In this document: one piece after another, positions 4 to 12,495 of the stretch
How the letters are laid out: every line of letters begins with the position of its first letter
Numbering within the stretch: position 1 is the first letter of the stretch
Assembly (NCBI GenBank): GCA_031254955.1
Contig: JAIRTK010000186.1
Location: forward strand, 1 to 12,495
Source: Opitutaceae bacterium
GTDB taxonomy: Bacteria; Verrucomicrobiota; Verrucomicrobiia; Opitutales; Opitutaceae
Length of the DNA stretch: 12,495 nucleotides
Direction of reading: 5' to 3'
Made by a program: the position numbers and the translations under genes
Notes under the pieces: generated by a model
Databases searched by the model: none
What the model was told of the DNA's origin: nothing
Seen by the model: the letters and a program-made list of their open reading frames with translations, nothing else

Positions 4-2979
4 TTAAAACTGGTTTTGGAAGACTGCTGTTTTTCGGAATTGCAGTTTCACCTCGCCCAGCAAACCGGCGTCGAGCAGGGGGGATTTTTCATTAAAATAA
101 TTCCAGGAAGAGAACGCCGCCCTTTGTTTTGACGGGCGCGGCTTTCCCGCGATCAGCCATTCGGGGAAAATCCGCAACGCCCTTCCTTCCGCATTCATGG
201 ACGGCCCCCATTCGCAATCATCCGGGTGGTTGTTGTCACCGATCAACCGGTTGGCCCAGGTGTTGGTCACGGAAACGGCGATTTCATTCTCGCCGGGTTT
301 TATAAATTCGGTGATGTCCACCTCAAACGGAGCGTGCCAGAGCGTCGCGACCGGGTTTCCGTTGATCGTGACCGAGGCCAGTTCCTTGACAAGGCCCAGA
401 TTGAGGGAAACGGACAGGCCGCCGCCGGCGATGGCGTCAGGCGCGCGAAACCGGTTTGAATAGGTGGCGGTTCCGGCAAAATACCGGATGCGTTCGTCGT
501 TGGAGAGCGTCCACGATTCAAGCTTTTCAAATTTGGCGGTGAAGGGGCTTCCGACCGGCGGCTTGAATTCAACCTGCCACGCTCCGTCGATGACCCTGTC
601 GGCGGGCACGGTGTCGATGGCGGCGCGCAGTTTTTTGCCTTTGGCGGTCTGCAAGGCAAATTCGCCCGGCTGGCCGGATTTCACGATCCAGTTTCCCGCC
701 GCGTTTTTTTCCACGACCGACGTGTCGTCGGGCGACCGGGTGGCGACCTCGGTGACAAAATCGTCCTGCGCAATCGGATTCCGAAAAACAATAAACAGCG
801 CCTGGCTGGGTTTCAGGCGCAGGGCCACGTCAGTGCCATTGCCGGACGGGTTCCAGATCGCGAGGGGGGCGATATTCCCGGTCTCGGGGTCCCAGATTTC
901 CGGGGTCTTGTCGCGGACTCTCAAGGTGGCTTTTATATGTTTTGCCTTCGCTTCCGTGTTGGCGAAATAAAAAATATCCGCGTCACCGGCGCGGCGGTGC
1001 AGCCAGCAGAGGGAGTCATCGACGCCGCCGTGGACCATCACGCTGGGCGTCCTATTCAATTTCCGCAATGCATCCTCAATGCCGCCGTCCCAAAACACCC
1101 TGCCTTTCCCGTGGATATTTTCCTGGATTCCCGCAGAAATATCCTTTCCCCAGACAAGATCGGCCAGCTTTTTGAATTTTTCCTCATGGGTCGCGAGGTC
1201 CTTGTATCCTTTGGCCCTTGCCGGACGCGGGCCGAAGACAACCGCCCCTTGGGCCACCAGTTTCTCAAGTTTTATCAAGGCATCCAGCGAGAGACCGCCC
1301 TCATGGGGCACGGCGAGCAGGGAGTAGGTTCTCCCGGAGGGGCTGACGATTTTGCCATCCCTTGTTTCGGTGTGATGGAGCAATGTTTTTTCCGAGATTA
1401 CATCCCCGCCCGGAATATAAACATTCAGCGAGACGAAATCGCTGACCTTCTCCCCTTTTTGCAATAGATATTGCGACCGGCCCAGATAGGCGATCCATGC
1501 CTTGCCCGGTTCGAACCAGGTTTGGTTGCGGCCAAAATGCGTTCCCCACGGCCCCATGCTCATGCCCGGTTTTATATGATCGGGGAAGGGCTGGTGGACC
1601 CAGTGGTGCAGGATCATCCGGTTGACGCCTTTGGAAAAGGCCACGTCGCCGCTGAACTTGAGCTGCGCGGGCGTCTCGGTCCAGCGGCTTTGCGCGCCGT
1701 TGCCGGTGAATGCCTCCGCGCTCAACAGGGTGAGGCCAAAGAAAGGAATGGCCGCGTTGACATGCCATTTGTCGATGTCGCTTTTCCTCATGCGGGTCCA
1801 GAATTCGGTCGTGGGCAGATCGGCCACGTGTGCGGCGTCGAAGGTGTTGAACGGGCGCGGGACGTTCACCGGCCCGGTGGCGTAAGGCTCGATTTGTATG
1901 CGCAGGCCCAGCTCCCGGAGCATCTTTTTCGGGAGTTGATAGCTATATTCGACAAACATGTCCGACACGACGGTCTTCAGGTCCCACTTGAATCCTTCTG
2001 TGGCCTCGTTGCTTTCGAGGATGCGTCCCGCCAGGACAGGCAGCCACGGAATAATATCATAACCCTTCCGGGCGAGAAATTCCTCCCGCATCCGGGCCGT
2101 CCAATTCTGGTCGCCGGCCTCGTAACTGTCGAAGAGCATGTGCGTGATCGTGCCGCCGAGATAGGGGCCGGCGTGTTTTTTCAACGGTTCCAGGATGTTT
2201 CGCAGGTGGAGGGCCATCGCCCCGGCGCTCATCTTGTCCGCCTCCAGCGCGTCGACGTTTTCGGGCGCCGAGGTCGGGGTTGCCCCGGTCGGGGTATGGC
2301 CGAAACGGTATATAATATAGTCCCCCTTTGGAATTTCGCATGTCAATTTTCCATCGCCCCGCATTTTGTCGGAGATGTCTATGATGCCGCCGACCGCCGG
2401 CTCGCCGTCCGGCACCAGCAGCACGGCGATGTCTTTATAATAATTTAATTTCCCCTCGGGCCGGCTCAGGTGGCCGGTGAATCGTCTCGGGCCTGAAATC
2501 CGGGTCTCCGACCAGACGACCTGCTGCATGGCGTTTTCCGGCGTTATCCAAGGGCCGCCGCTGACCGACCAGCCCGCGCAATTATGCAGGCCCAGCTCCA
2601 AGCCGAGCCTTTTGGCCTCCGCCGCCGTGTATTTTATCAAGTCCCACCACTTTTCATTAAAATAATCAATGTCTTGGGAATAGGTGTTGGCCACGGGCGG
2701 ATACCGGTCGGTCGCGGTCGAGACAAGCTGGAAGAGCGTCGCGCCGGCCACGCCGGAGTCGCGCATGGCCTCCAGGTCCTTTGTGATGCCCTCCTTGTCA
2801 ACGTTGTATCCCACCCAGTGCCACCAGACATGCGGGCCTGATGCTTTTCCCGGCGACCGGAAGCCGTCCGGGGAGATGGCGTCGTTCATTGGGGCATCCT
2901 TGCCGTGGCCATGCGCGAAGGCGAGCGCCAGGGCGCACAGGACGCGCAGTTGATATTTCAATTTATAGAGACAGGTCAT
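4..2979 (-). CDS. Secreted GH106-type alpha-L-rhamnosidase
   Basis: The 991-residue product is probably an exported glycoside hydrolase that removes alpha-L-rhamnose from plant or algal polysaccharide. The chosen start gives a basic, hydrophobic N-terminus (about residues 1-26) that fits a signal peptide; the open frame runs on upstream into the transporter gene, but that extension reads as out-of-frame coding. Family signs are GPHVWWHWVGYNVDKEGITK (48-67) followed by DLEAMRDSGVAGATLFQ, the DSYEAGDQNW block (284-293), SAEAFTG (420-426), the GVNRMILHHWVHQPF block (451-465), and the FGRNQTWFEPGKAW plus YLGRSQYLLQKGE blocks (482-509). E287 and E422 are candidate catalytic or metal-site acids, by inference only. 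Residues about 835-930 resemble a galactose-binding beta-sandwich as in GH2 and GH106 proteins. The length fits the family. There is no clear Shine-Dalgarno. It lies 101 bp after the symporter gene. Base composition looks less GC-rich than that of its neighbours. Family call is firm; the substrate is unknown. Confidence 0.88.
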   Translation of the reverse strand: MTCLYKLKYQLRVLCALALAFAHGHGKDAPMNDAISPDGFRSPGKASGPHVWWHWVGYNVDKEGITKDLEAMRDSGVAGATLFQLVSTATDRYPPVANTYSQDIDYFNEKWWDLIKYTAAEAKRLGLELGLHNCAGWSVSGGPWITPENAMQQVVWSETRISGPRRFTGHLSRPEGKLNYYKDIAVLLVPDGEPAVGGIIDISDKMRGDGKLTCEIPKGDYIIYRFGHTPTGATPTSAPENVDALEADKMSAGAMALHLRNILEPLKKHAGPYLGGTITHMLFDSYEAGDQNWTARMREEFLARKGYDIIPWLPVLAGRILESNEATEGFKWDLKTVVSDMFVEYSYQLPKKMLRELGLRIQIEPYATGPVNVPRPFNTFDAAHVADLPTTEFWTRMRKSDIDKWHVNAAIPFFGLTLLSAEAFTGNGAQSRWTETPAQLKFSGDVAFSKGVNRMILHHWVHQPFPDHIKPGMSMGPWGTHFGRNQTWFEPGKAWIAYLGRSQYLLQKGEKVSDFVSLNVYIPGGDVISEKTLLHHTETRDGKIVSPSGRTYSLLAVPHEGGLSLDALIKLEKLVAQGAVVFGPRPARAKGYKDLATHEEKFKKLADLVWGKDISAGIQENIHGKGRVFWDGGIEDALRKLNRTPSVMVHGGVDDSLCWLHRRAGDADIFYFANTEAKAKHIKATLRVRDKTPEIWDPETGNIAPLAIWNPSGNGTDVALRLKPSQALFIVFRNPIAQDDFVTEVATRSPDDTSVVEKNAAGNWIVKSGQPGEFALQTAKGKKLRAAIDTVPADRVIDGAWQVEFKPPVGSPFTAKFEKLESWTLSNDERIRYFAGTATYSNRFRAPDAIAGGGLSVSLNLGLVKELASVTINGNPVATLWHAPFEVDITEFIKPGENEIAVSVTNTWANRLIGDNNHPDDCEWGPSMNAEGRALRIFPEWLIAGKPRPSKQRAAFSSWNYFNEKSPLLDAGLLGEVKLQFRKTAVFQNQF

Positions 2980-3034
2980 GATAGTGTGGCGGCCATCTTT
3001 TCGGACGCGCCCCGCCGGGGCAACCCCGTCCTCG

Positions 3035-3047
3035 GTCAACCGTTGAC
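3035..3047. promoter_or_regulatory. 13-nt palindrome upstream of the GH106 gene
   Basis: GTCAAC and GTTGAC form perfect 6-nt arms around one central base, 56 bp upstream of the rhamnosidase start in the 101-bp gap after the symporter gene. Read with the next base it also fits the loose LacI/cre-like pattern AANCGNT..CA. It could be an operator for a LacI-type protein and would allow separate control of the rhamnosidase. It is not the same sequence as the palindrome at 9187-9202, and a 13-nt palindrome can occur by chance. Confidence 0.3.
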
Positions 3048-3080
3048 ATCGGGGAAACGCGGGCGCCGGCCCGTGACCGG

Positions 3081-5036
3081 TCATTTTTTCGCGTCCACCG
3101 TCCCGTTGTCCTCCTCGTCGCGGCTGGCGGTGCGCAGGTGGGTGAAGAGTCTTCGCAGGTCGCGGCGTCCGCCGATGACAAACCACGCCACCGTCGCCAC
3201 CGCCGCGAGCATCGACACGAGCACGGTGAAGCCCCACCAGCCGCGCCACCACTCGATTCGCAGCCAGCCCGCGATGCCCAGCGCCGTGCCGATGACAAAC
3301 GCGGCCGTGAAGACCGTCGTCCAACCGACCTTCAGGCCGATGGTCCAGCGGTCCTCGCGCGTGTAGATGTCGCGCGGCTTGGCGGGCGCGGGGGATTTTT
3401 CAGCGACTTTTTTCGCGGTTTCCGGGACGCCGGCGGCTCCCGTCCGCCCGAGCATGAGGTCGAGGTCGAAGCGTTTTCCGCGCGAGGTCGCCAGCGAGAC
3501 CGCGACGAAGCCGGCGATCGAGGCCGCGTAGGCGACCATCGCCAGCCACGCGCCGTTGAGCGGCATGCGGGGCGCGAGGCTCAGGAGGAACGGCACCGAG
3601 GGCCACACCGTTTGCAGGCCGACGCCGAGCAGGGCCACCACCGCGCCGGTGATCATCGCCGTCCACGCGCCCTGCACGGTGGCGCGGCGCCAGTAGAGGC
3701 CGCCGATGATGACCGCGCCGGAGCCGCCGAGATAAATCGTCCCGGTGATGAGAAAATACATAAAAATATGGTCGCGCATCGGGAAGAACAGGCTCCACAG
3801 ATACGCGAACAACGCCACGCCCGCCGCCGCGAGGCGCAGGCAGCGCAACTGCTCCGCGGGCGTGAACGGTTTCTTGCGCAGCGGCAGCACGACATCCTGT
3901 ATAAAAATGCTGCCCCAAGAATGAAGCTGGCTGGCGTCAGCCGCCGTGGAGCCGCCGATAATCGAGGCGATGAACAATCCCAGCAACCCGGTGGGCAGGA
4001 TCACCGCGAGCGTGACCGGCACGGTCATCTGGCTGCGGATTTGGGCGTCGCCAATCTCGCCGAGGCGCGACTGCACGAGCGCGCCCAAGTCGGCCAGCCC
4101 CGCGTGGTGCAGCACGGCATAGGCGCAAATCGGAATCACCAGCGGCACGATATATAAAAAGCCGCGCCGCCACTCGCTGAGCACGCTCGCCATGCGGGCC
4201 TCGTGCGGCGAGGTCGCGGCGGCATTGAAGCCCTGCGCGTTTTGCCAGCCGAGGCAGTTATAAAACGCCTTGAACGTGAAAATGAGGAAAAACCAAATGT
4301 TGAAATCCGCGATGGCCTTCTGGTCGAACGGGTCCAGCAGCGAGGCGCCGGCGGGCGCGGCTGACACGCTTTCCATCATCACGGCCCAGTCGAAGCGTTT
4401 CAGCAGGTAGAGCGTGATCGCCACATACACGGCGATCATGAACATGCCTTGGAGAAAATTGGTCACGATGCATGTGATCATCCCGCCGTAGAGCGTGATC
4501 AACAGCGGCACCAGCATCAGCGGCAGCATGACGAGCGCGCGCGTGTCCACGCCGAGGCCGAGGATGACGGTTTGCGCGGGCAGGTCGGCAAGCTGGATGA
4601 GCACGTTGGCGACGATGCCGGGAAACACGCCGTAGTTCAGCAGCCCCGACACGAACCCGAGCATGCCCGACATGATGCGGAAGCGCCGCGTGTAGCGCAT
4701 CTCGAAGAACTGCGCGAGCGTGAGCGCCCGCGTCGCCCGGAAGCGATACACGACCCAGCCGCTCATGGCCACGATCAGGCCCACGGGCGCGAGCATGAAC
4801 TCCCACCACATCGCGCCGAACCCGGCCTGAAAGAATTTCTCGAAATTGGCGACCATGGCCGTGACGCCAAACAGGCTCATGCCCTGGCCGACCGACACGA
4901 GGTAGCGTCCCGCGCAGCGGTCGGCGGCGAGAAAGTCCGCCACGCTGCGCGTGTATTTTTTCAGATAGACGGCGCTGCCAAGAAACAGGCCGACCACTCC
5001 GATGATGATGATCCAGTCAAGCAAGCCGATGTGCAT
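3081..5036 (-). CDS. SSS-family sodium/solute symporter
   Basis: This 651-residue integral inner-membrane protein belongs to the sodium:solute symporter family (SSF, SGLT-like) and probably couples sodium to uptake of a sugar or sugar acid. It starts with a membrane segment (about 8-24), then KKYTRSVADFLAADR, typical of the loop after the first helix, and GQGMSLFGVTAM in the second. The segment IASIIGGSTAADASQLHSWG (357-375) followed by SIFIQD matches the family's TM8 signature, where S363/T364 would be at the Na2 site. About 13 helices span residues 1-520. A cytoplasmic linker rich in Lys, Ala and Pro (about 520-562) leads to two further helices (about 565-590 and 600-625), an extension beyond the core fold. 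The start MHIGLLDW places the first helix correctly; there is no Shine-Dalgarno. It precedes the rhamnosidase gene by 101 bp, which suggests that it imports a product of that enzyme. The substrate cannot be read from sequence. Confidence 0.92.
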   Translation of the reverse strand: MHIGLLDWIIIIGVVGLFLGSAVYLKKYTRSVADFLAADRCAGRYLVSVGQGMSLFGVTAMVANFEKFFQAGFGAMWWEFMLAPVGLIVAMSGWVVYRFRATRALTLAQFFEMRYTRRFRIMSGMLGFVSGLLNYGVFPGIVANVLIQLADLPAQTVILGLGVDTRALVMLPLMLVPLLITLYGGMITCIVTNFLQGMFMIAVYVAITLYLLKRFDWAVMMESVSAAPAGASLLDPFDQKAIADFNIWFFLIFTFKAFYNCLGWQNAQGFNAAATSPHEARMASVLSEWRRGFLYIVPLVIPICAYAVLHHAGLADLGALVQSRLGEIGDAQIRSQMTVPVTLAVILPTGLLGLFIASIIGGSTAADASQLHSWGSIFIQDVVLPLRKKPFTPAEQLRCLRLAAAGVALFAYLWSLFFPMRDHIFMYFLITGTIYLGGSGAVIIGGLYWRRATVQGAWTAMITGAVVALLGVGLQTVWPSVPFLLSLAPRMPLNGAWLAMVAYAASIAGFVAVSLATSRGKRFDLDLMLGRTGAAGVPETAKKVAEKSPAPAKPRDIYTREDRWTIGLKVGWTTVFTAAFVIGTALGIAGWLRIEWWRGWWGFTVLVSMLAAVATVAWFVIGGRRDLRRLFTHLRTASRDEEDNGTVDAKK

Positions 5037-5218: not shown

Positions 5219-5323
5219 GGTAGGGAGGCCTCTCCGAGGCCTCCGCCGGATGGGGAGGACGGCTGGAACATTCATGGGGAAATCGGGGTGTTTTCGCGGA
5301 GGCCTCGGAGAGGCCTCCCTACC
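5219..5323. repeat. REP-like inverted pair (BIME-like), family A
   Basis: Two exact 28-nt copies lie in inverted orientation at 5219-5246 and 5296-5323, separated by 49 nt. Each copy is itself a hairpin: arms GGAGGCCTC and GAGGCCTCC around a TCC loop. Directly before each hairpin stands GTAG (5220-5223 on +, 5322-5319 on -), so both heads point outwards. A GTAG tetranucleotide before an imperfect palindrome is the known signature of REP sequences mobilised by RAYT (TnpA-REP, Y1 HUH) transposases, and outward-facing pairs are typical BIMEs. No RAYT gene is in the window. When transcribed, the pair could form either two small hairpins or one long stem, which may protect or terminate transcripts between the enzyme gene and the symporter gene. 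Confidence 0.75.
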
Positions 5324-5502: not shown

Positions 5503-5544
5503 GTCGGATAGGGGGAAGGGGGAGTGAAATTTTGAAATCTCCCT

Positions 5545-5642
5545 AAAGAGAACGAGAACGAGAACGAAGAACGATAAAGGGAACGAGAACGATAAAGGGA
5601 AGGGGAACGATAAAGAGAAAGATAAAGAGGAAAGAAGAAAGA
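5545..5642. repeat. Purine-rich tract with hexamer and 18-bp tandem repeats
   Basis: Almost all bases on the + strand are A or G. It begins with three GAACGA hexamers (5550-5567), continues after one extra A with three imperfect 18-bp units starting at 5569, 5587 and 5605 (core GAACGATAAAG), and ends in GATAAAGAGG and GAAGAAAG. It lies immediately 3' of the 1165-residue enzyme gene, so its transcript would carry a pyrimidine-rich 3' trailer. Length variation by slippage is likely. Confidence 0.7.
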
Positions 5643-5672: not shown

Positions 5673-8600
5673 TCAGTTTTTCGGCCCTTCGGCCTTTTCC
5701 TTCGTGCCGGGAAGCTCGAACCACGGCGTCGCGGTCTCCGGCTTGCCGGACTCGGCAAGGTGAAGCCGCAGACGGATGTCGCGCGCCATGTCCACGCGCG
5801 GGACGGAAAATTCATACGGGAACGCGTCGGCGCGCGGGCCGTTACCGACGGCGGCGCCGCCGCTTTCAAGCTCCAGCCGCGCGGTTGCGCCCGCGCCGGG
5901 CCGTCCGTCCAGCACGACATACACTGCGTCGCTGCCAAAGGGCGAGCGGATGCGGAACGCCCGCATTTCGCCCCACGTTTTCCCGAGGTCCGCCGAGACC
6001 GGCCTGGTTTCGAGTTTGGGAATGGCCGGGGTCACGGTTTCCTCCGCCGCGTCAAACGTGAGCACGGCGAGGCCGCCGGGCGGAAGCGTGACGAGGCGGC
6101 GTCCGTCCGGCTTGAGCACGAGCCGGGTCTTTTTTCCCGGGTCGCCGGCGGTGCGGAGGGCCGGGCGGGCGCCGGGCGCGAGCCGGAGCGCGGCGGAGTC
6201 GAGTTCGACGCCCGCCGTGACCTCGCCGCGGGACTGGTTGAGCAGCACGAGGTGGAACTGGTTTTTCCCGCGCGCGCCGAAATAATCGACCAGCGGCGTG
6301 TCCACGCGGAATTTCGTCCGGTCGAGCCACAGGCGGCAGTCCTCGTCGTCGAAAACCCGTCCGGCGCGCCCGCCGTAAACGCGCGAGGTGAACCACACGT
6401 AGCCCTGCTGGCGCGCGTAGGGGAAGCGCACCGCGCCCTGCGTGCGCACGTCGGCGTCGGTGACGAGATAGTCGAGCAGCATCGCCAGGTGCACCGGCAC
6501 GTGGTGCCAGTAAAACGAGGTCAGGTCCGGCCCCGCGCGCGGGTAGTCGGGCCGCTGCATCACGTCGATATAATCGGAGAGATAATAACCGGGATAATTC
6601 GCGCCGCGCCCGATGATGGCGTTGCGGGCGAACACGCGCCAGTAATCGTCCCCCGTCCCGCCGTAAAGGCGCAGCAGGCTCGGCGCCCAGACGGCGAGCT
6701 GGATGTTGCTCATCTTGTCCGACGCGCTGAAATACGTGATCGGTTGCTCCACGCCGAGGCCGGAGGGCGACACGACCCACTCGGGCACGGTTTTCTCGGG
6801 CATGGCAAAGGAGGCGCGCGCGCGGATGTGCGGCTTGATGCCCTCGGGCCAGCCCATGCGCCAGGTCCTGTCGCCCCGCCACCAGACGTGGTGCAGGCAG
6901 GTGTATTTGTTTTCAGGATACAACGTGAGCGCTCCCCCGCCCGGCGGCGGCGTCACCCACTGGCCGGCCACGGTCTGCCAGGCGCCGAGCCGGGCCGCGT
7001 CGAGATAACGCGGCTCGCCGGTGAGCTGCCACAGGTCGAGCAGGTCCCACCAGCAGGGATAAACCGCGACATTGTAGAACGGCTGAATGCCGGTCGTTTT
7101 TGTCAGGCCGGGGTTGTTCTCAAAGGCGCGCTTGATCCAGCCGTCCGCGTTGGCCTGCACGCGCTTGAGCAGGGCGGCGTCCGGCTTTTGGCGGAGCAGG
7201 GCGAGCCAGCCCGACCAGTCGGTCTCGGCGCTGTTGTTGGCGGGCTTGAGCGGGCGGCCCTCGGCGGTGCGCATGTAGTCGAGCAGCCACGGGTTCAGGC
7301 CGCCGGTGAGGTCGTCCGCGCCCTGCCAGACGGCGGAGCCGAAAAAGAGGTTTTTGAAGTCGATGCGGGCGGTTCGTTTCGTGACGTAAAGGTTGCCCTC
7401 CGCGCTCAGGGCGAAATGCGCGCCGGGCCGGCTGAGCAGATACTCCAGCGCGGGCAGCGCGCGGCGGTTGAAAAACGCCTCGTCGCGCGTGAGGCGGGCC
7501 GCCGTGAAATAGGCCAGCGGCGCGGCGTGCGTCACGGTGTTCGGGCTTTCGATGTTCGCCGGCCCCTTCAGCCGCGCATCCCAGCCCGAGGCCTCGTCGT
7601 CGGCCATCAGGTCGATGATGTTGAGCGCCTGCTCCGTGAGCGAGGCGGCGACCGGCTCGCGGTAGTCGGCCAGTCCGAAGATTTTTGTGTCGGCGGCGCG
7701 CATGACTTCCGTCCACGGTTGCGGCGCGGCCACCGCCCACCAGGTCGCGCGCACTTTTTCGCCGCGCTTCGCGTGCGAGTTTTTCCCGCCCAGAATGGGC
7801 GCGAAAATCCAGCCTTGTGCCTCGCCCGACGGCGCGACCAGGGCGAACCCGCAACGCGCGTTGTGCTTCGTCGGCCACTCGCGCGAGAGAAATTCCGGCG
7901 CGGCGACCACGCCGAAAGTCGCCCCGGCGGCACCGCCTTTCGCGCGGCGCTCGACCAAGGCAAACGGATGCGAGGTCAGCGAGGACGTGATCATCTCCGC
8001 CGCGTCCGGCACCCGGCGGAATTGAAACAACGGCGGCAACTGCACCGCCGCCACCTCGTCGCGCGGCACGGCGGCGCCGGAGGCAAACGCGAACGCATAC
8101 CAGCCGTCCGCCTCCGCCTCGTGCTCCACCTCCACGCGCGCGGCAAAGCCCTCCGCCGGCGCGTGCCAGATGGCGCGGATTGTCCTCGGCGCACGTGACA
8201 GAACCATTCCAACAGGCAAAATCTCGCGATACTCCACCTCGACCGCGTCCGCGCCGCCGCCGGTTTTCACGCGCCGCGCCGCGACAGGCTCCAGCCTTGA
8301 TTGCCAGCCGGCGGCAAACGGGTCGCGCGGGTCCGCCGGACGCGAAAAGGTCCGCCCGCCCAATTGCCACGCCACCACGGCGTCGTTTTTCCACGCCGGA
8401 AAATAGCCCTCGAACGACGCGATGTTTTCCGCGCTCTCCATCAACAACAGCGGCTCCACGCCCGCCTCGACCGTGACCGCCGGGCCGCCGGATGTCCTGT
8501 GCGCAACCTCGCGCCACACGCGGGCCGAGCCGTCCGCCGCCCGCGCCGCGCGGAACACCAGCGTGGCGCCGGGCGCGTCCAGCGCCGCCAGCGGCGGCGC

Positions 8601-9170
8601 TTCGCGGTCGGGGACGGCGGGCCTCATCTCGCCGCCGGGCGCGACGCGGCGCGGCTGCACGACATCCACGCGGTATTTGTTCAACGCATCCCGGCCCACG
8701 CTGTTCGGGTCCAGCCCCTCCGAGGACAGCAGAACCGCGTCGAGGCGCGCGTAGAACCGCGCGGAATCCTCGATTTCCAGCAGTCGCACGCCGGCCTCCA
8801 GCCGCGCCTCGCCCACGTGCTCCCAATACCAGCCGTCCCGCCCGTGCCGGCCCGATTCACGCGCCGCGGGCTGCCCGTCGAGCTTGATGAGGCAGCGGCG
8901 CGTCCCAGGCTGGCTGGCGGGAAAATCCTGCGTGCGCGTCCAGATTTGGTAAACGCCGGGGCGCGTGATGTTGACGCCGGCGAAGGCGGTGCCCGGCATG
9001 TTGCTGGACTGGATGTGAATCCCGGTTTTCTGCCACGAGCCGAGCGCGACAAACGTCTCGGGTTCGACAAGCAACGTGGCGCCGGCGGCGGACGCGCCAA
9101 GCGGGGCGAAGGCGAGCGCCGCGCCGGCGGACAGGCGGGCGACGAGTTTGGCAAAGGGTAGTTTCGGCAT
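5673..9170 (-). CDS. Large exported protein, probable carbohydrate-active enzyme of unassigned family
   Basis: The 1165-residue product opens with a good signal peptide (1-28, ending GASA), which also supports this start; no Shine-Dalgarno is visible. Residues about 31-150 look like a beta-sandwich ligand-binding module: VEPETFVALGSWQ, VYQIWTRTQDF, KLDGQ, GWYWEHVG, LEIEDSARFYARLDAVLLSSEG, a pattern I associate with secreted planctomycete/verrucomicrobial enzymes. Residues about 230-490 appear beta-rich. Residues about 500-910 look helical and may be an alpha/alpha toroid, with conserved-looking blocks ADDEASGWDARLKGPANIES (523-542) then PNTVTHAAPLAY, FYNVAVYPCWWDLLDLW (698-714), YTCLHHVWWRGDRTW (756-770), GYYLSDYIDVMQRPDYPRAG (861-880) and TSFYWHHVPVHLAML (884-898). 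The paired His, Trp and acidic residues suggest a catalytic cleft. The C-terminus (about 950-1165) looks like beta domains. I do not recognise the family; a lyase or glycosidase is an inference. It is divergent from the LacI gene across a shared operator. Confidence 0.85.
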   Translation of the reverse strand: MPKLPFAKLVARLSAGAALAFAPLGASAAGATLLVEPETFVALGSWQKTGIHIQSSNMPGTAFAGVNITRPGVYQIWTRTQDFPASQPGTRRCLIKLDGQPAARESGRHGRDGWYWEHVGEARLEAGVRLLEIEDSARFYARLDAVLLSSEGLDPNSVGRDALNKYRVDVVQPRRVAPGGEMRPAVPDREAPPLAALDAPGATLVFRAARAADGSARVWREVAHRTSGGPAVTVEAGVEPLLLMESAENIASFEGYFPAWKNDAVVAWQLGGRTFSRPADPRDPFAAGWQSRLEPVAARRVKTGGGADAVEVEYREILPVGMVLSRAPRTIRAIWHAPAEGFAARVEVEHEAEADGWYAFAFASGAAVPRDEVAAVQLPPLFQFRRVPDAAEMITSSLTSHPFALVERRAKGGAAGATFGVVAAPEFLSREWPTKHNARCGFALVAPSGEAQGWIFAPILGGKNSHAKRGEKVRATWWAVAAPQPWTEVMRAADTKIFGLADYREPVAASLTEQALNIIDLMADDEASGWDARLKGPANIESPNTVTHAAPLAYFTAARLTRDEAFFNRRALPALEYLLSRPGAHFALSAEGNLYVTKRTARIDFKNLFFGSAVWQGADDLTGGLNPWLLDYMRTAEGRPLKPANNSAETDWSGWLALLRQKPDAALLKRVQANADGWIKRAFENNPGLTKTTGIQPFYNVAVYPCWWDLLDLWQLTGEPRYLDAARLGAWQTVAGQWVTPPPGGGALTLYPENKYTCLHHVWWRGDRTWRMGWPEGIKPHIRARASFAMPEKTVPEWVVSPSGLGVEQPITYFSASDKMSNIQLAVWAPSLLRLYGGTGDDYWRVFARNAIIGRGANYPGYYLSDYIDVMQRPDYPRAGPDLTSFYWHHVPVHLAMLLDYLVTDADVRTQGAVRFPYARQQGYVWFTSRVYGGRAGRVFDDEDCRLWLDRTKFRVDTPLVDYFGARGKNQFHLVLLNQSRGEVTAGVELDSAALRLAPGARPALRTAGDPGKKTRLVLKPDGRRLVTLPPGGLAVLTFDAAEETVTPAIPKLETRPVSADLGKTWGEMRAFRIRSPFGSDAVYVVLDGRPGAGATARLELESGGAAVGNGPRADAFPYEFSVPRVDMARDIRLRLHLAESGKPETATPWFELPGTKEKAEGPKN

Positions 9171-9179
9171 GGCGGACAG

Positions 9180-9208
9180 GGTAGTTTCGTAAACGTTTAC
9201 GATGTCAA
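9180..9208 (-). promoter_or_regulatory. Possible promoter of the large enzyme gene
   Basis: On the - strand a perfect TTGACA (9208-9203) is followed 17 nt later by ACTACC (9185-9180), a poor -10 match. The 16-bp palindrome fills almost the whole spacer. If real, transcription would begin within a few bases of the ATG at 9170, giving a near-leaderless message, which fits the missing Shine-Dalgarno. Confidence 0.4.
9187..9202. promoter_or_regulatory. LacI-type operator palindrome
   Basis: TCGTAAACGTTTACGA is a perfect 16-bp palindrome with the central CG and AAACGTTT core typical of LacI/GalR-family operators. It lies in the 88-bp gap between the divergent regulator and enzyme genes, 17 bp before the enzyme start. 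Its last base coincides with the first base of an upstream in-frame ATG of the regulator frame, which argues that the regulator starts later, at 9259. The neighbouring LacI protein is the obvious ligand, acting on the enzyme gene and probably on itself. Confidence 0.85.
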
Positions 9209-9258
9209 TGCAAAAACTTGCCCTCCGCCGTCGCCCGCCTCATTTTGTCCGGGATTTC

Positions 9259-10347
9259 ATGGCCGCAAAATCCAAAACCTCGTCCGCCTCCGCCGCCGTC
9301 CCGGTCAATATCAAGAGCCTCGCCCGGCTCGTCGGCGTGAGCATCGGCACCGTCTCGCGGGCGCTCAACAACCGCTACGGCGTGAACCCCGACACGCGCC
9401 GCCGCGTGCTGGAGGCGGCGCGCGCGCACCACTTTCTGCCCAACGGCGCCGCCCGCCGCCTGCGCCACCGCCCCTCGCTGCAACTCGGGCTTTTTTTCGC
9501 CCCCTACTACGGCCCGAACCGCGAGATCAACCCCGCCGCGCTCAACCTCATCGAGACCCTGCGCGCCAGCCTGGCGGAGCACGGCGCGGAGTTGCGCGTG
9601 CTCTATTACAAGGACGACGAGGACCTGCGCGCCCAAGCCGAGGGCGTGGACGTGGGGCTGTTTTACGGGCACTTCGAGGCGCCGGCGTTTCACGTCGCGC
9701 ACGCGCTGGGCGTCCCCGCCATCCTCTACGACAAACGCTCGGCGCACGAGGACCAGGTGTCGCTCATGGCCGACACGGGCCGGAGCTGCGGCATGGCGGT
9801 GCAGTATCTCGCCGCGCTCGGCCATGAGCGCATCGCGATGGTCACGGGACCCTCGGGCGAGCAGTATTTCCACAACTATCTGGAAACGTTTCCGGCGGCG
9901 ATGGCGGAGTTCAACCTGCCCGTCCGCCCGGAGTGGGTCGTCACGCTGGACGCCGCCGCCTGCAACAAGGACGGCGCGCGCGACGCCGTGCTGCCGCTTC
10001 TCAAAAAACGCGTCCGCCCCACGGCCATTATTTTTGCCTCCGACTGGCTCGCCATCGGCGGACGCAAGGCCGCGCGCGACGCCGGGCTTCGCGTGCCGGA
10101 CGACATCAGCCTCATCGGCTATGACAATCTCCCCATCACCTCCGAGCTGGACCCGCCGCTGACCACCTTCGACGTGCACATCCCGCGCGTGGTCGAGACC
10201 CTCACCCTGCTCGCCACGCAACTCGGCACCCGCCAGCGCCGGGCCGCGCGGGGCGCGTTGCGGAAGGAATACCTCATCACTCCCGATTTCGTGAAGCGCC
10301 AGTCCTGCCGCTGTCTGCGCCCCGCGCGTGGAAAACCGGGGGCGTGA
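9259..10347 (+). CDS. LacI-family transcriptional regulator
   Basis: This 362-residue cytoplasmic DNA-binding protein has the full LacI/GalR architecture. The helix-turn-helix is at about 17-36 (IKSLARLVGVSIGTVSRALN), followed by the third helix and the hinge PNGAARRLRHRPSLQLGLFF. The periplasmic-binding-protein-like core follows, with VQYLAALGHERIAMVTGP and the typical C-terminal motif PTAIIFASDWLAIGGRKAAR then DDISLIGYDNLPITSELDPPLTT, where D290 of GYDN is the usual sugar-contact region. An earlier in-frame ATG at 9202 would overlap the operator and add 19 atypical residues, so ATG 9259 is preferred; neither has a good Shine-Dalgarno. It is divergent from the 1165-residue enzyme gene and is likely its sugar-responsive repressor. 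It ends in a Cys/Arg-rich tail (QSCRCLRPARGK). The inducer is unknown. Confidence 0.93.
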   Translation: MAAKSKTSSASAAVPVNIKSLARLVGVSIGTVSRALNNRYGVNPDTRRRVLEAARAHHFLPNGAARRLRHRPSLQLGLFFAPYYGPNREINPAALNLIETLRASLAEHGAELRVLYYKDDEDLRAQAEGVDVGLFYGHFEAPAFHVAHALGVPAILYDKRSAHEDQVSLMADTGRSCGMAVQYLAALGHERIAMVTGPSGEQYFHNYLETFPAAMAEFNLPVRPEWVVTLDAAACNKDGARDAVLPLLKKRVRPTAIIFASDWLAIGGRKAARDAGLRVPDDISLIGYDNLPITSELDPPLTTFDVHIPRVVETLTLLATQLGTRQRRAARGALRKEYLITPDFVKRQSCRCLRPARGKPGA

Positions 10348-11086: not shown

Positions 11087-11937
11087 GAGCGTCTAACAAA
11101 ATGATTTGAAAAGGAGGCGAAGGCACTATGAAACCGAGGGAAGTCAAAACCATTGTTGAGCGACGGGCTATGGTCGGAGATCGAGGAGTTGCTGCCGGTC
11201 AAGCCGAGGCGCAAGCGCAACCCCGGGCGCAAGCGCGTGGGCAACCGGGAGGCGCTCACGGAGATAATCTTCATCCTGAAGACGGGGATGGGCTGGGAGG
11301 ATCTGCCGCAGGAGCTTGGCTGCGGGAGCGGCATGACCTGCTGGCGGCGGATGCGCGAATGGCTGGCGGCGGGGGGCTGAGAGCGCCTGCAAACCAAGCT
11401 GCGCGAAAAGCTCGACGGAGCGGGGAAAATCGACTGGTCGAGGGCGGCCGTGGATTCAAGCAGCGTGCGGGCTGTTTTTGGGGGAGCCAGACCGGTCCCA
11501 ATCCGGTCGACCGGGCGAAGCCGGGCAGCCAACACCATGTCCTGACCGACGCCCTGGGCGTGCCCCTGGCCACGGGCCTCTCGTCGGCGAACCGGCACGA
11601 CAGCCAGTATCTGTTTGCGCTGCTGGCCGCGCTGCCCGGCTGCCTGCGCCGCAAAATCGTCAGTCTGTATGCCGACCGGGCCTAGGACAGCGAGGAGTTC
11701 CGCCGCCGCCTCAGCCAGGAGGGCATCACGCCGTTTCTTGCCCGGCGCGGCGTCGCCCACGGCAGCGGCTTGGGCGCAAGCCGCTGGGTGGTCGAGCGCA
11801 CCATCGCCTGGCTCCACCAATTCCGGCGGCTGCGCATTCGTTACGAGCGGCACGGTTATATGCATCGCGCTTTCCTTTCGCTTGCCGCTTCCATCATCAT
11901 GTCAAGATCACTCCAAAATTCATTTTGTTGGACGCTC
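11087..11937 (+). mobile_element. Decayed IS5-family insertion sequence
   Basis: The left end GAGCGTCTAACAAAATGA (from 11087) and the reverse complement of the right end GAGCGTCCAACAAAATGA (from 11937) are inverted repeats with one mismatch in 18. The 851-bp length fits IS5-family groups of the IS427/IS1031 kind. Flanks are TAA on the left and TTG on the right, so no intact target duplication remains. The only gene is a broken transposase on the + strand. Confidence 0.88.
11111..11117 (+). promoter_or_regulatory. Strong Shine-Dalgarno of the IS transposase
   Basis: AAGGAGG lies 10 nt before the ATG at 11128 and fixes that codon as the original transposase start, although the frame is broken a few codons later. 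No host gene in the window has a comparable site. Confidence 0.7.
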
Positions 11938-12097: not shown

Positions 12098-12495
12098 TCA
12101 TGGTTGGGCGCTCTCATTCGGAAACGGAGCAGCATCTTTGGGTGTTCTGCCATCAGTGCTCAACATAAAATCAGCTTCAGCGGGCGCTATGGCATGACGT
12201 TTATTCACGGCGGTGGCCTTGTTTACGCTTTGCCGAAAGCGAGTTTTCCCCGAAACTGTTTTGCCCGCCAATACATCTTCCTCCGCGAATACAGCCATAA
12301 GGATCTCTTTCGCGCGGTGGCGTTGATAATCATATATAATATAAATACGTCCATCACTTGCCTGCATGCCGTCGGGATAGCTGACTTCGTTGCGCTCATC
12401 AATCACCAGACCGCCTTGCCAGTTCTTTCCGTCATTGTCCGACACGAATGCCATTAGTTGCGAACGCCCTGTTTTGGCCGTTATCGCCCCGTGCT
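12098..12495 (-). CDS. Sialidase-like (BNR-repeat) protein, C-terminal part
   Basis: The frame is open to the window edge, so the start lies outside and only about 132 C-terminal residues are visible. LMAFVSDNDGKNWQGGLVID is an Asp-box-like segment (SDNDGKNW), followed by ERNEVSYPDGMQASDGRIYI and IYDYQRHRAKEILMAVFAEEDVLAG, which match the last blades of exo-alpha-sialidase-like six-bladed propellers widespread in Verrucomicrobiota and Planctomycetota. Members are usually exported, but the N-terminus is not visible here. Many are not proven to act on sialic acid, so the substrate should be left open. The ATG at 12454 is internal (Met in QLMAFVSD), not the start. The last 45 residues are a polar tail ending ESAQP. 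The gene lies beyond the decayed IS and its composition looks lower in GC than the central genes. Confidence 0.8.
   Translation of the reverse strand, partial: HGAITAKTGRSQLMAFVSDNDGKNWQGGLVIDERNEVSYPDGMQASDGRIYIIYDYQRHRAKEILMAVFAEEDVLAGKTVSGKTRFRQSVNKATAVNKRHAIAPAEADFMLSTDGRTPKDAAPFPNESAQP

Follow-up and report, generated by a model that had tools for sequence, protein, structure and literature searches.

Which reaction is carried out by a large, predicted exported protein encoded beside a rhamnosidase and a sugar-type symporter, and to which family does it belong? This question is raised by a 12,495-nucleotide stretch of Opitutaceae DNA (in its full length termed the window), in which the gene in question is referred to as the target. 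Apparently, the target is of an ordinary kind, namely a carbohydrate-active enzyme within a sugar operon, and represents an unnamed family of real breadth that may carry a recent CAZy number.

Gene, predicted architecture and family searches

The target ORF, for which the initial annotation had given the position and the length of 1165 residues without a strand, was found intact on the minus strand, with 1165 codons and an ATG start. Judged by its relatives, it is a real gene and no chance ORF, because at least 58 homologues were detected at E<=0.001 (8000 candidates scored) and a one-genome-per-species scan yielded 380 candidate stretches, of which 347 encode a relative. Among the matches listed, the best homologue is a hypothetical protein of Termitidicoccus mucosus (91% identity over 100% of the length), and the other named close homologues are of Opitutaceae origin (Ereboglobus luteus, Opitutaceae TAV5 and TAV1, and MAGs), many rows being nameless. 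The source bacterium is close to Termitidicoccus. TAV5 is an isolate from a termite hindgut (PMC11848413).

Table 1. Positions of the target, its parts and the adjacent elements within the window; residue numbers refer to the target protein.
Feature	Position	Strand	Basis or remark
GH106 alpha-L-rhamnosidase with jelly-roll domain	4..3324	-	Pfam/NCBIfam
SSF sodium:solute symporter	3081..5036	-	Pfam/NCBIfam
Target protein	5673..9170	-	1165-aa predicted exported protein, unclassified (alpha/alpha)6-barrel family
C-terminal beta domains, residues 918-1153	5712..6419	-	model
(alpha/alpha)6 barrel, residues 486-910	6441..7715	-	model; beta excursion at about 745-796
Conserved Tyr/His block, Y862 to H890	6501..6587	-	conservation in cores
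E808, candidate catalytic carboxylate	6747..6749	-	invariant Glu in all three branches
E541, candidate catalytic carboxylate	7548..7550	-	Asp in p945 (D354), Glu/Asp in p860 (hhalign)
Beta domain, residues 195-482	7725..8588	-	model; supersandwich-like by our reading
CBM6/35/36-like beta module, residues 29-152	8715..9086	-	model
Probable signal peptide, residues 1-28	9087..9170	-	sequence by eye; helix 6-17 at low pLDDT in model
Putative LacI-type operator, perfect 16-bp palindrome	9187..9202	.	between target and divergent lacI
LacI-family regulator, divergent	9202..10347	+	Pfam/NCBIfam; true start may lie downstream

An AlphaFold2 model of the target reached a mean pLDDT of 90.6 and provides a confident fold prediction, comprising a beta module (residues 30-150), a beta domain (195-482), a helical barrel (approximately 486-910) and C-terminal beta domains. 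The signal peptide read from the sequence in the initial annotation corresponds to an N-terminus that is Sec-like by eye, and the other parts were recovered in this model: the binding module corresponds to a predicted beta-sandwich of the CBM6/35/36 fold, the long helical core to an (alpha/alpha)6 toroid-type barrel that was also recognized by structure comparison, and the C-terminal beta domains are likewise present. Furthermore, its rhamnosidase and sugar-type symporter were identified by family search as GH106 and SSF (Table 1). The GH106 gene probably starts downstream of its ORF start because the ORF overlaps the symporter gene.

Searches of the target against Pfam-A and NCBIfam (reference of 1164 aa, first codon missing) returned zero families at E<=1, and phmmer with the single target sequence against all PDB chains returned nothing at E<=10. 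Alignment profiles yielded weak PDB rows only, with best E-values of 0.059 (A1), 0.0056 (A2), 0.014 (A3) and 0.023 (A5); A1 combines 51 of the 58 homologues with the window protein (52 rows), and A5 joins 71 of 78 locus cores to the window core (72 cores). The view that the protein belongs to no recognised family is therefore upheld for Pfam, NCBIfam and, by sequence, the PDB; in its Pfam part, the profile search proposed with that view matched no characterised family. No description of the family was found in literature titles and abstract openings, and PADLOC gave no match.

As modelled, the fold is known and the family is not, because structure comparison places the barrel about as close to epimerases as to GH76, GH88 and PL27. 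AGE-superfamily cellobiose 2-epimerases share 8-15% identity with the target, comprise approximately 370-420 residues and lack beta domains. It is very improbable that the target is such an epimerase-like or a purely glycan-binding (alpha/alpha)6 protein without cleaving activity: its 1165-residue, predicted exported chain with beta domains differs from these short chains, and it sits together with glycosidases. The GH88 unsaturated glucuronyl hydrolases and GH76 mannanases are single-barrel chains, and neither family is matched by the target. For GH88 (PF07470), the target had no match at E<=1, and two remote relatives matched below the cut-off. The catalytic pair of GH76 is formed by adjacent Asp residues; no such adjacent pair was found among the residues conserved to at least 93% in the 72 cores. 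For the full model, Foldseek ranked GH15 dextran dextrinase highest, with an E-value of 6.9e-8; these rows were set aside because TM-scores were near 0.14 and the rmsd was 27.5.

Relatives, palindrome and gene neighbourhoods

The best 80 of the 347 relatives, representing 79 distinct loci, were kept; according to record titles they originate from Opitutaceae, other Verrucomicrobiota, Kiritimatiellae, Lentisphaerae, Planctomycetes, Capsulimonadaceae and Bacteroidota (Pedobacter, Chitinophaga, Sphingobacterium and others). Within Opitutaceae, the target profile matched 13 of 61 sampled genomes (10 of 50 of good quality by the tool's tally), nine of the 13 showing a core match and the matches in the other four being confined to the N-terminal module or to a short segment, as read from the rows. 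The window's own genome (69% complete) contains 13 profile-matching places, with core matches on nine contigs (some split in two or from other branches) and one module-only place; the single target sequence identified 11 places. The family is widespread and multi-copy, the core of its scanned members carries no Pfam or NCBIfam name, and a name for the target's reaction would supply annotation for hundreds of genes in one step.

Two proteins encoded next to the target in Bacteroidota loci, p860 and p945, were recognized as its relatives by hhalign against the target core, each with probability 100 (p860: E 4e-60 over 743 columns; p945: E 9e-100 over 762 columns). On the basis of these profile alignments, target, p860 and p945 are branches, at least three in number, of one large uncharacterised superfamily; the p945 search alone yielded at least 854 homologues. 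To our knowledge, no superfamily member has a known activity. One p945-branch protein (P0082) is naturally fused to a GH97 enzyme.

The dedicated LacI operator named in the initial annotation was located as the palindrome TCGTAAACGTTTACGA upstream of the target. It is the sole match in the window at <=3 mismatches, and any match appeared in 6 of 200 shuffles. Elsewhere in the window's genome, one further exact copy precedes a GH35 beta-galactosidase gene on a 3.7-kb contig, and one site with 2 mismatches was found. The 7.9-Mb genome of a member of the same genus (G133) contains exactly two copies at <=1 mismatch (reversed-pattern control: none), located on either side of lacI: one precedes a gene that by eye is nearly identical to this GH35 gene, and the other precedes target-SSF-GH106; no copy was found in G137, a genome of another genus. 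Because of exactly two copies in G133 and none in G137, the regulon is local and small, comprising GH35, target, SSF and GH106, which makes the substrate question directly testable. The LacI regulator presumably binds the palindrome. Since GH106 and GH35 share this regulon, a glycan that contains both alpha-L-rhamnose and beta-galactose is indicated, either galactan-branched rhamnogalacturonan-I or arabinogalactan protein.

Neighbouring genes were labelled by their best phmmer match to proteins of L055, L059 and the window that are of known family. In the 28 loci with SusC/D, p860 was present in all 28 and in 27 of them lay directly upstream of the target gene, followed in frequency by DUF5017 (21), GDSL (19), FAD oxidoreductase (15), p945 (13), GH3 (9) and GH97 (6); SSF-type transporters were counted in 9 and 8 loci by two queries. 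The three branches thus co-occur in polysaccharide-utilisation loci of Bacteroidota. GH106 was observed beside the target in one of these 28 and in one of 51 other loci, which are lower bounds as many contigs are short, and its vicinity is not a general trait. Within Opitutaceae, further cases of the target near GH106 are G000:C88, a region of G133 around 7.2 Mb and the G137 cluster. The family's substrate may differ between lineages, because in Bacteroidota loci the place of GH106 is taken by GH3, GH97 and FAD oxidoreductase.

The 100-kb island of the Opitutaceae genome G137 (L111-L115) encodes two targets, two p860 and three p945 proteins together with three GH106-labelled ORFs, GH78, GH97, GH3, GH2, two GH43-type enzymes, GDSL, a BNR protein, FAD oxidoreductase and, by eye, a LacI-type regulator. 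One superfamily member of this island resides within a 3765-aa ORF, with autotransporter and TonB-receptor-plug genes nearby. In locus L036 (3524-7939), three ORFs neighbouring the target (354, 553 and 538 aa) had no Pfam family at E<=0.001, and other Pedobacter-type loci contain ORFs of similar size at the equivalent position. In loci without SusC/D, the families of unlabelled ORFs (64 of 103 candidates) were too scattered to indicate a substrate, sulfatases being found in 2 of 64. A rhamnulose aldolase, suspected from an 'Aldolase_II' label, was not located by NCBIfam searches of ten chosen proteins. Weak hints of acid sugars are given by one Capsulimonadaceae locus, where an SDR and a galactonate-dehydratase-type enzyme adjoin the target, and by one Ereboglobus locus encoding an MFS transporter with D-galactonate transporter as best NCBIfam match, below the cut-off.

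FAD oxidoreductase-labelled genes were recorded in 9 of the 51 other loci as well. Nine places in the sampled Opitutaceae carry the N-terminal module without the core, and all five of those examined encode FAD-dependent oxidoreductase-like proteins; the shared module provides a lead, and no more, that both enzymes act on one and the same polymer. Both observations would fit a target acting after the oxidoreductase, with a keto sugar made on the polymer and the oxidised unit cleaved by the target and its paralogues. This order of events is improbable, as the module was detected at E<=1e-3 in just these five of 32 FAD oxidoreductase-labelled ORFs and the window contains no such gene. An oxidation-assisted breakdown of an acidic plant glycan by as yet unnamed enzyme families, combining target, p860 and p945 with the module-sharing flavoprotein of some Opitutaceae, is likewise regarded as a long shot.

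Conserved residues and proposed reaction

In the 72 target-branch cores, W260, W432, R504, S510, N517, E541, W707, E808, R849, R855, Y862, Y887, H890 and D900 are 100% conserved, and R771, H889 and D869 (99%) as well as R930 (96%) are near-invariant. Across all three branches (82 sequences, including 46 of the 52 A1 rows; P0054-P0059 were excluded as p945-like or remote), E808, Y862 and H890 do not vary, and R855, D900 and R570 almost never do. The alignment of p860 near E541 is locally uncertain, two alignments placing neighbouring residues differently. Three of the four conserved blocks marked in the initial annotation contain polar or aromatic residues kept in at least 93% of the cores, namely 523-555 (W530, E541), 698-714 (N700, Y704, W707, W708) and 861-898 (Y862, Y863, D869, D882, Y887, H889, H890); the fourth, 756-770, has no such residues, R771 lying just outside it.

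Membership in GH127 (beta-L-arabinofuranosidase, PF07944) had been suggested by local helix matches in remote relatives: p945-branch proteins gave weak matches of 26.9, 24.9 and 24.5 bits (cut-off 24.9) over approximately 100 of 376 positions, and the target itself gave none. GH127 enzymes possess a catalytic cysteine and cysteine zinc ligands. No cysteine is conserved in more than 20% of the 72 cores, and membership was rejected on this test.

With an invariant Glu and a second position that is always acidic, all branches possess the minimum for a hydrolase, and the Tyr, His and Arg residues also kept in all branches would serve a lyase. The Arg/His-rich conserved set suggests an anionic substrate. 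We infer catalysis, reaction type, substrate and inducer as follows. The target is tentatively proposed to be an exported, glycan-binding and exo-acting hydrolase that removes a terminal unit from a plant glycan containing rhamnose and galactose, a hydrolase being somewhat more likely than a lyase. The CBM6/35/36-like module would dock the enzyme on the polymer, of the rhamnogalacturonan-I or arabinogalactan kind, and a pocket at the barrel mouth would release the terminal, probably uronate-containing, unit. E541 and E808 may act as general acid and base in a single-displacement hydrolysis, with the carboxylate of the substrate held by the cluster R504/R771/R849/R855/H889/H890. GH106 would then remove rhamnose and GH35 beta-galactose, the SSF symporter would import the product, and the latter would release LacI from the palindrome. 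Against this proposal, a lyase would be equally compatible with the conserved Tyr, His and Arg residues, the family seldom has GH106 as a neighbour outside Opitutaceae, and the Bacteroidota loci are equipped with other enzymes in its place.

A polysaccharide lyase like PL26 or PL27, performing beta-elimination at a uronate beside rhamnose with Y862, H890 and R855 as catalysts, is considered doubtful. The L-rhamnose-alpha-1,4-D-glucuronate lyase of PL27 (BACCELL_00875, 5no8), a family that releases rhamnose from gum arabic by beta-elimination, is the best structural match across both domains with moderate rmsd. Its layout, given as a beta-sandwich followed by an (alpha/alpha)6 barrel in PMC8377490, recurs in the target model, which shares the N-terminal beta domain and the barrel and, unlike PL27, adds the CBM-like module and the C-terminal beta domains. 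Against a lyase, 5no8 is absent from the PDB sequences reached at E<=10 by the A1 profile (6) and the A5 core profile (4), and a Tyr/His lyase does not need two conserved carboxylates. Beyond the reach of the single-sequence and A1/A5 searches of the PDB, a very remote sequence link to PL27 may exist.

The exo-rhamnogalacturonan lyases of PL26 (5xqg, 5xq3; Pfam PcRGLX) share the beta-then-barrel order, with approximately 480-500 residues aligned; an rmsd of about 25 indicates differently placed domains. Membership in PL26, prompted by the domain order, was ruled out by profile comparison, since hhalign probabilities for eight PL26 proteins, used as same-fold control, did not exceed 0.3 with A1, A2 or A3, and zero Pfam families were matched at E<=1; these values also speak against the lyase reading. 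Two separate PcRGLX matches are present in the window's genome. Six weakly PcRGLX-like proteins (L097-L102) aligned to the three branches with hhalign probabilities of 56 (79 columns), 75 (76 columns) and 77 (257 columns), and the p945 profile matched one of these six with E 1.4e-4 over 42 positions. A remote link of the superfamily to the PL26 neighbourhood may exist. Naming the target reaction would probably fill a gap in the degradation pathway of a branched acidic plant glycan.

Further elements of the window

The gap between symporter and target genes contains a perfect 28-bp inverted repeat at 5219-5323, with 49 bp between the arms. An element may have been inserted here, because this repeat is present and the gap comprises 636 bp in the window versus 145 bp in the same-genus genome (L129). 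Purine-rich degenerate direct repeats, consisting of four 24-nt copies with spacings of 18-25, were observed at 5544-5628. On the plus strand at approximately 11130-11930, a stretch that is transposase-like by eye is broken by frameshifts and a stop; a 288-aa ORF on the opposite, minus strand had no family match. At 12098-12493, a partial BNR_2 protein (sialidase-like propeller) is cut by the window end and scored below the Pfam cut-off; a BNR_2 protein is also encoded in the G137 cluster.
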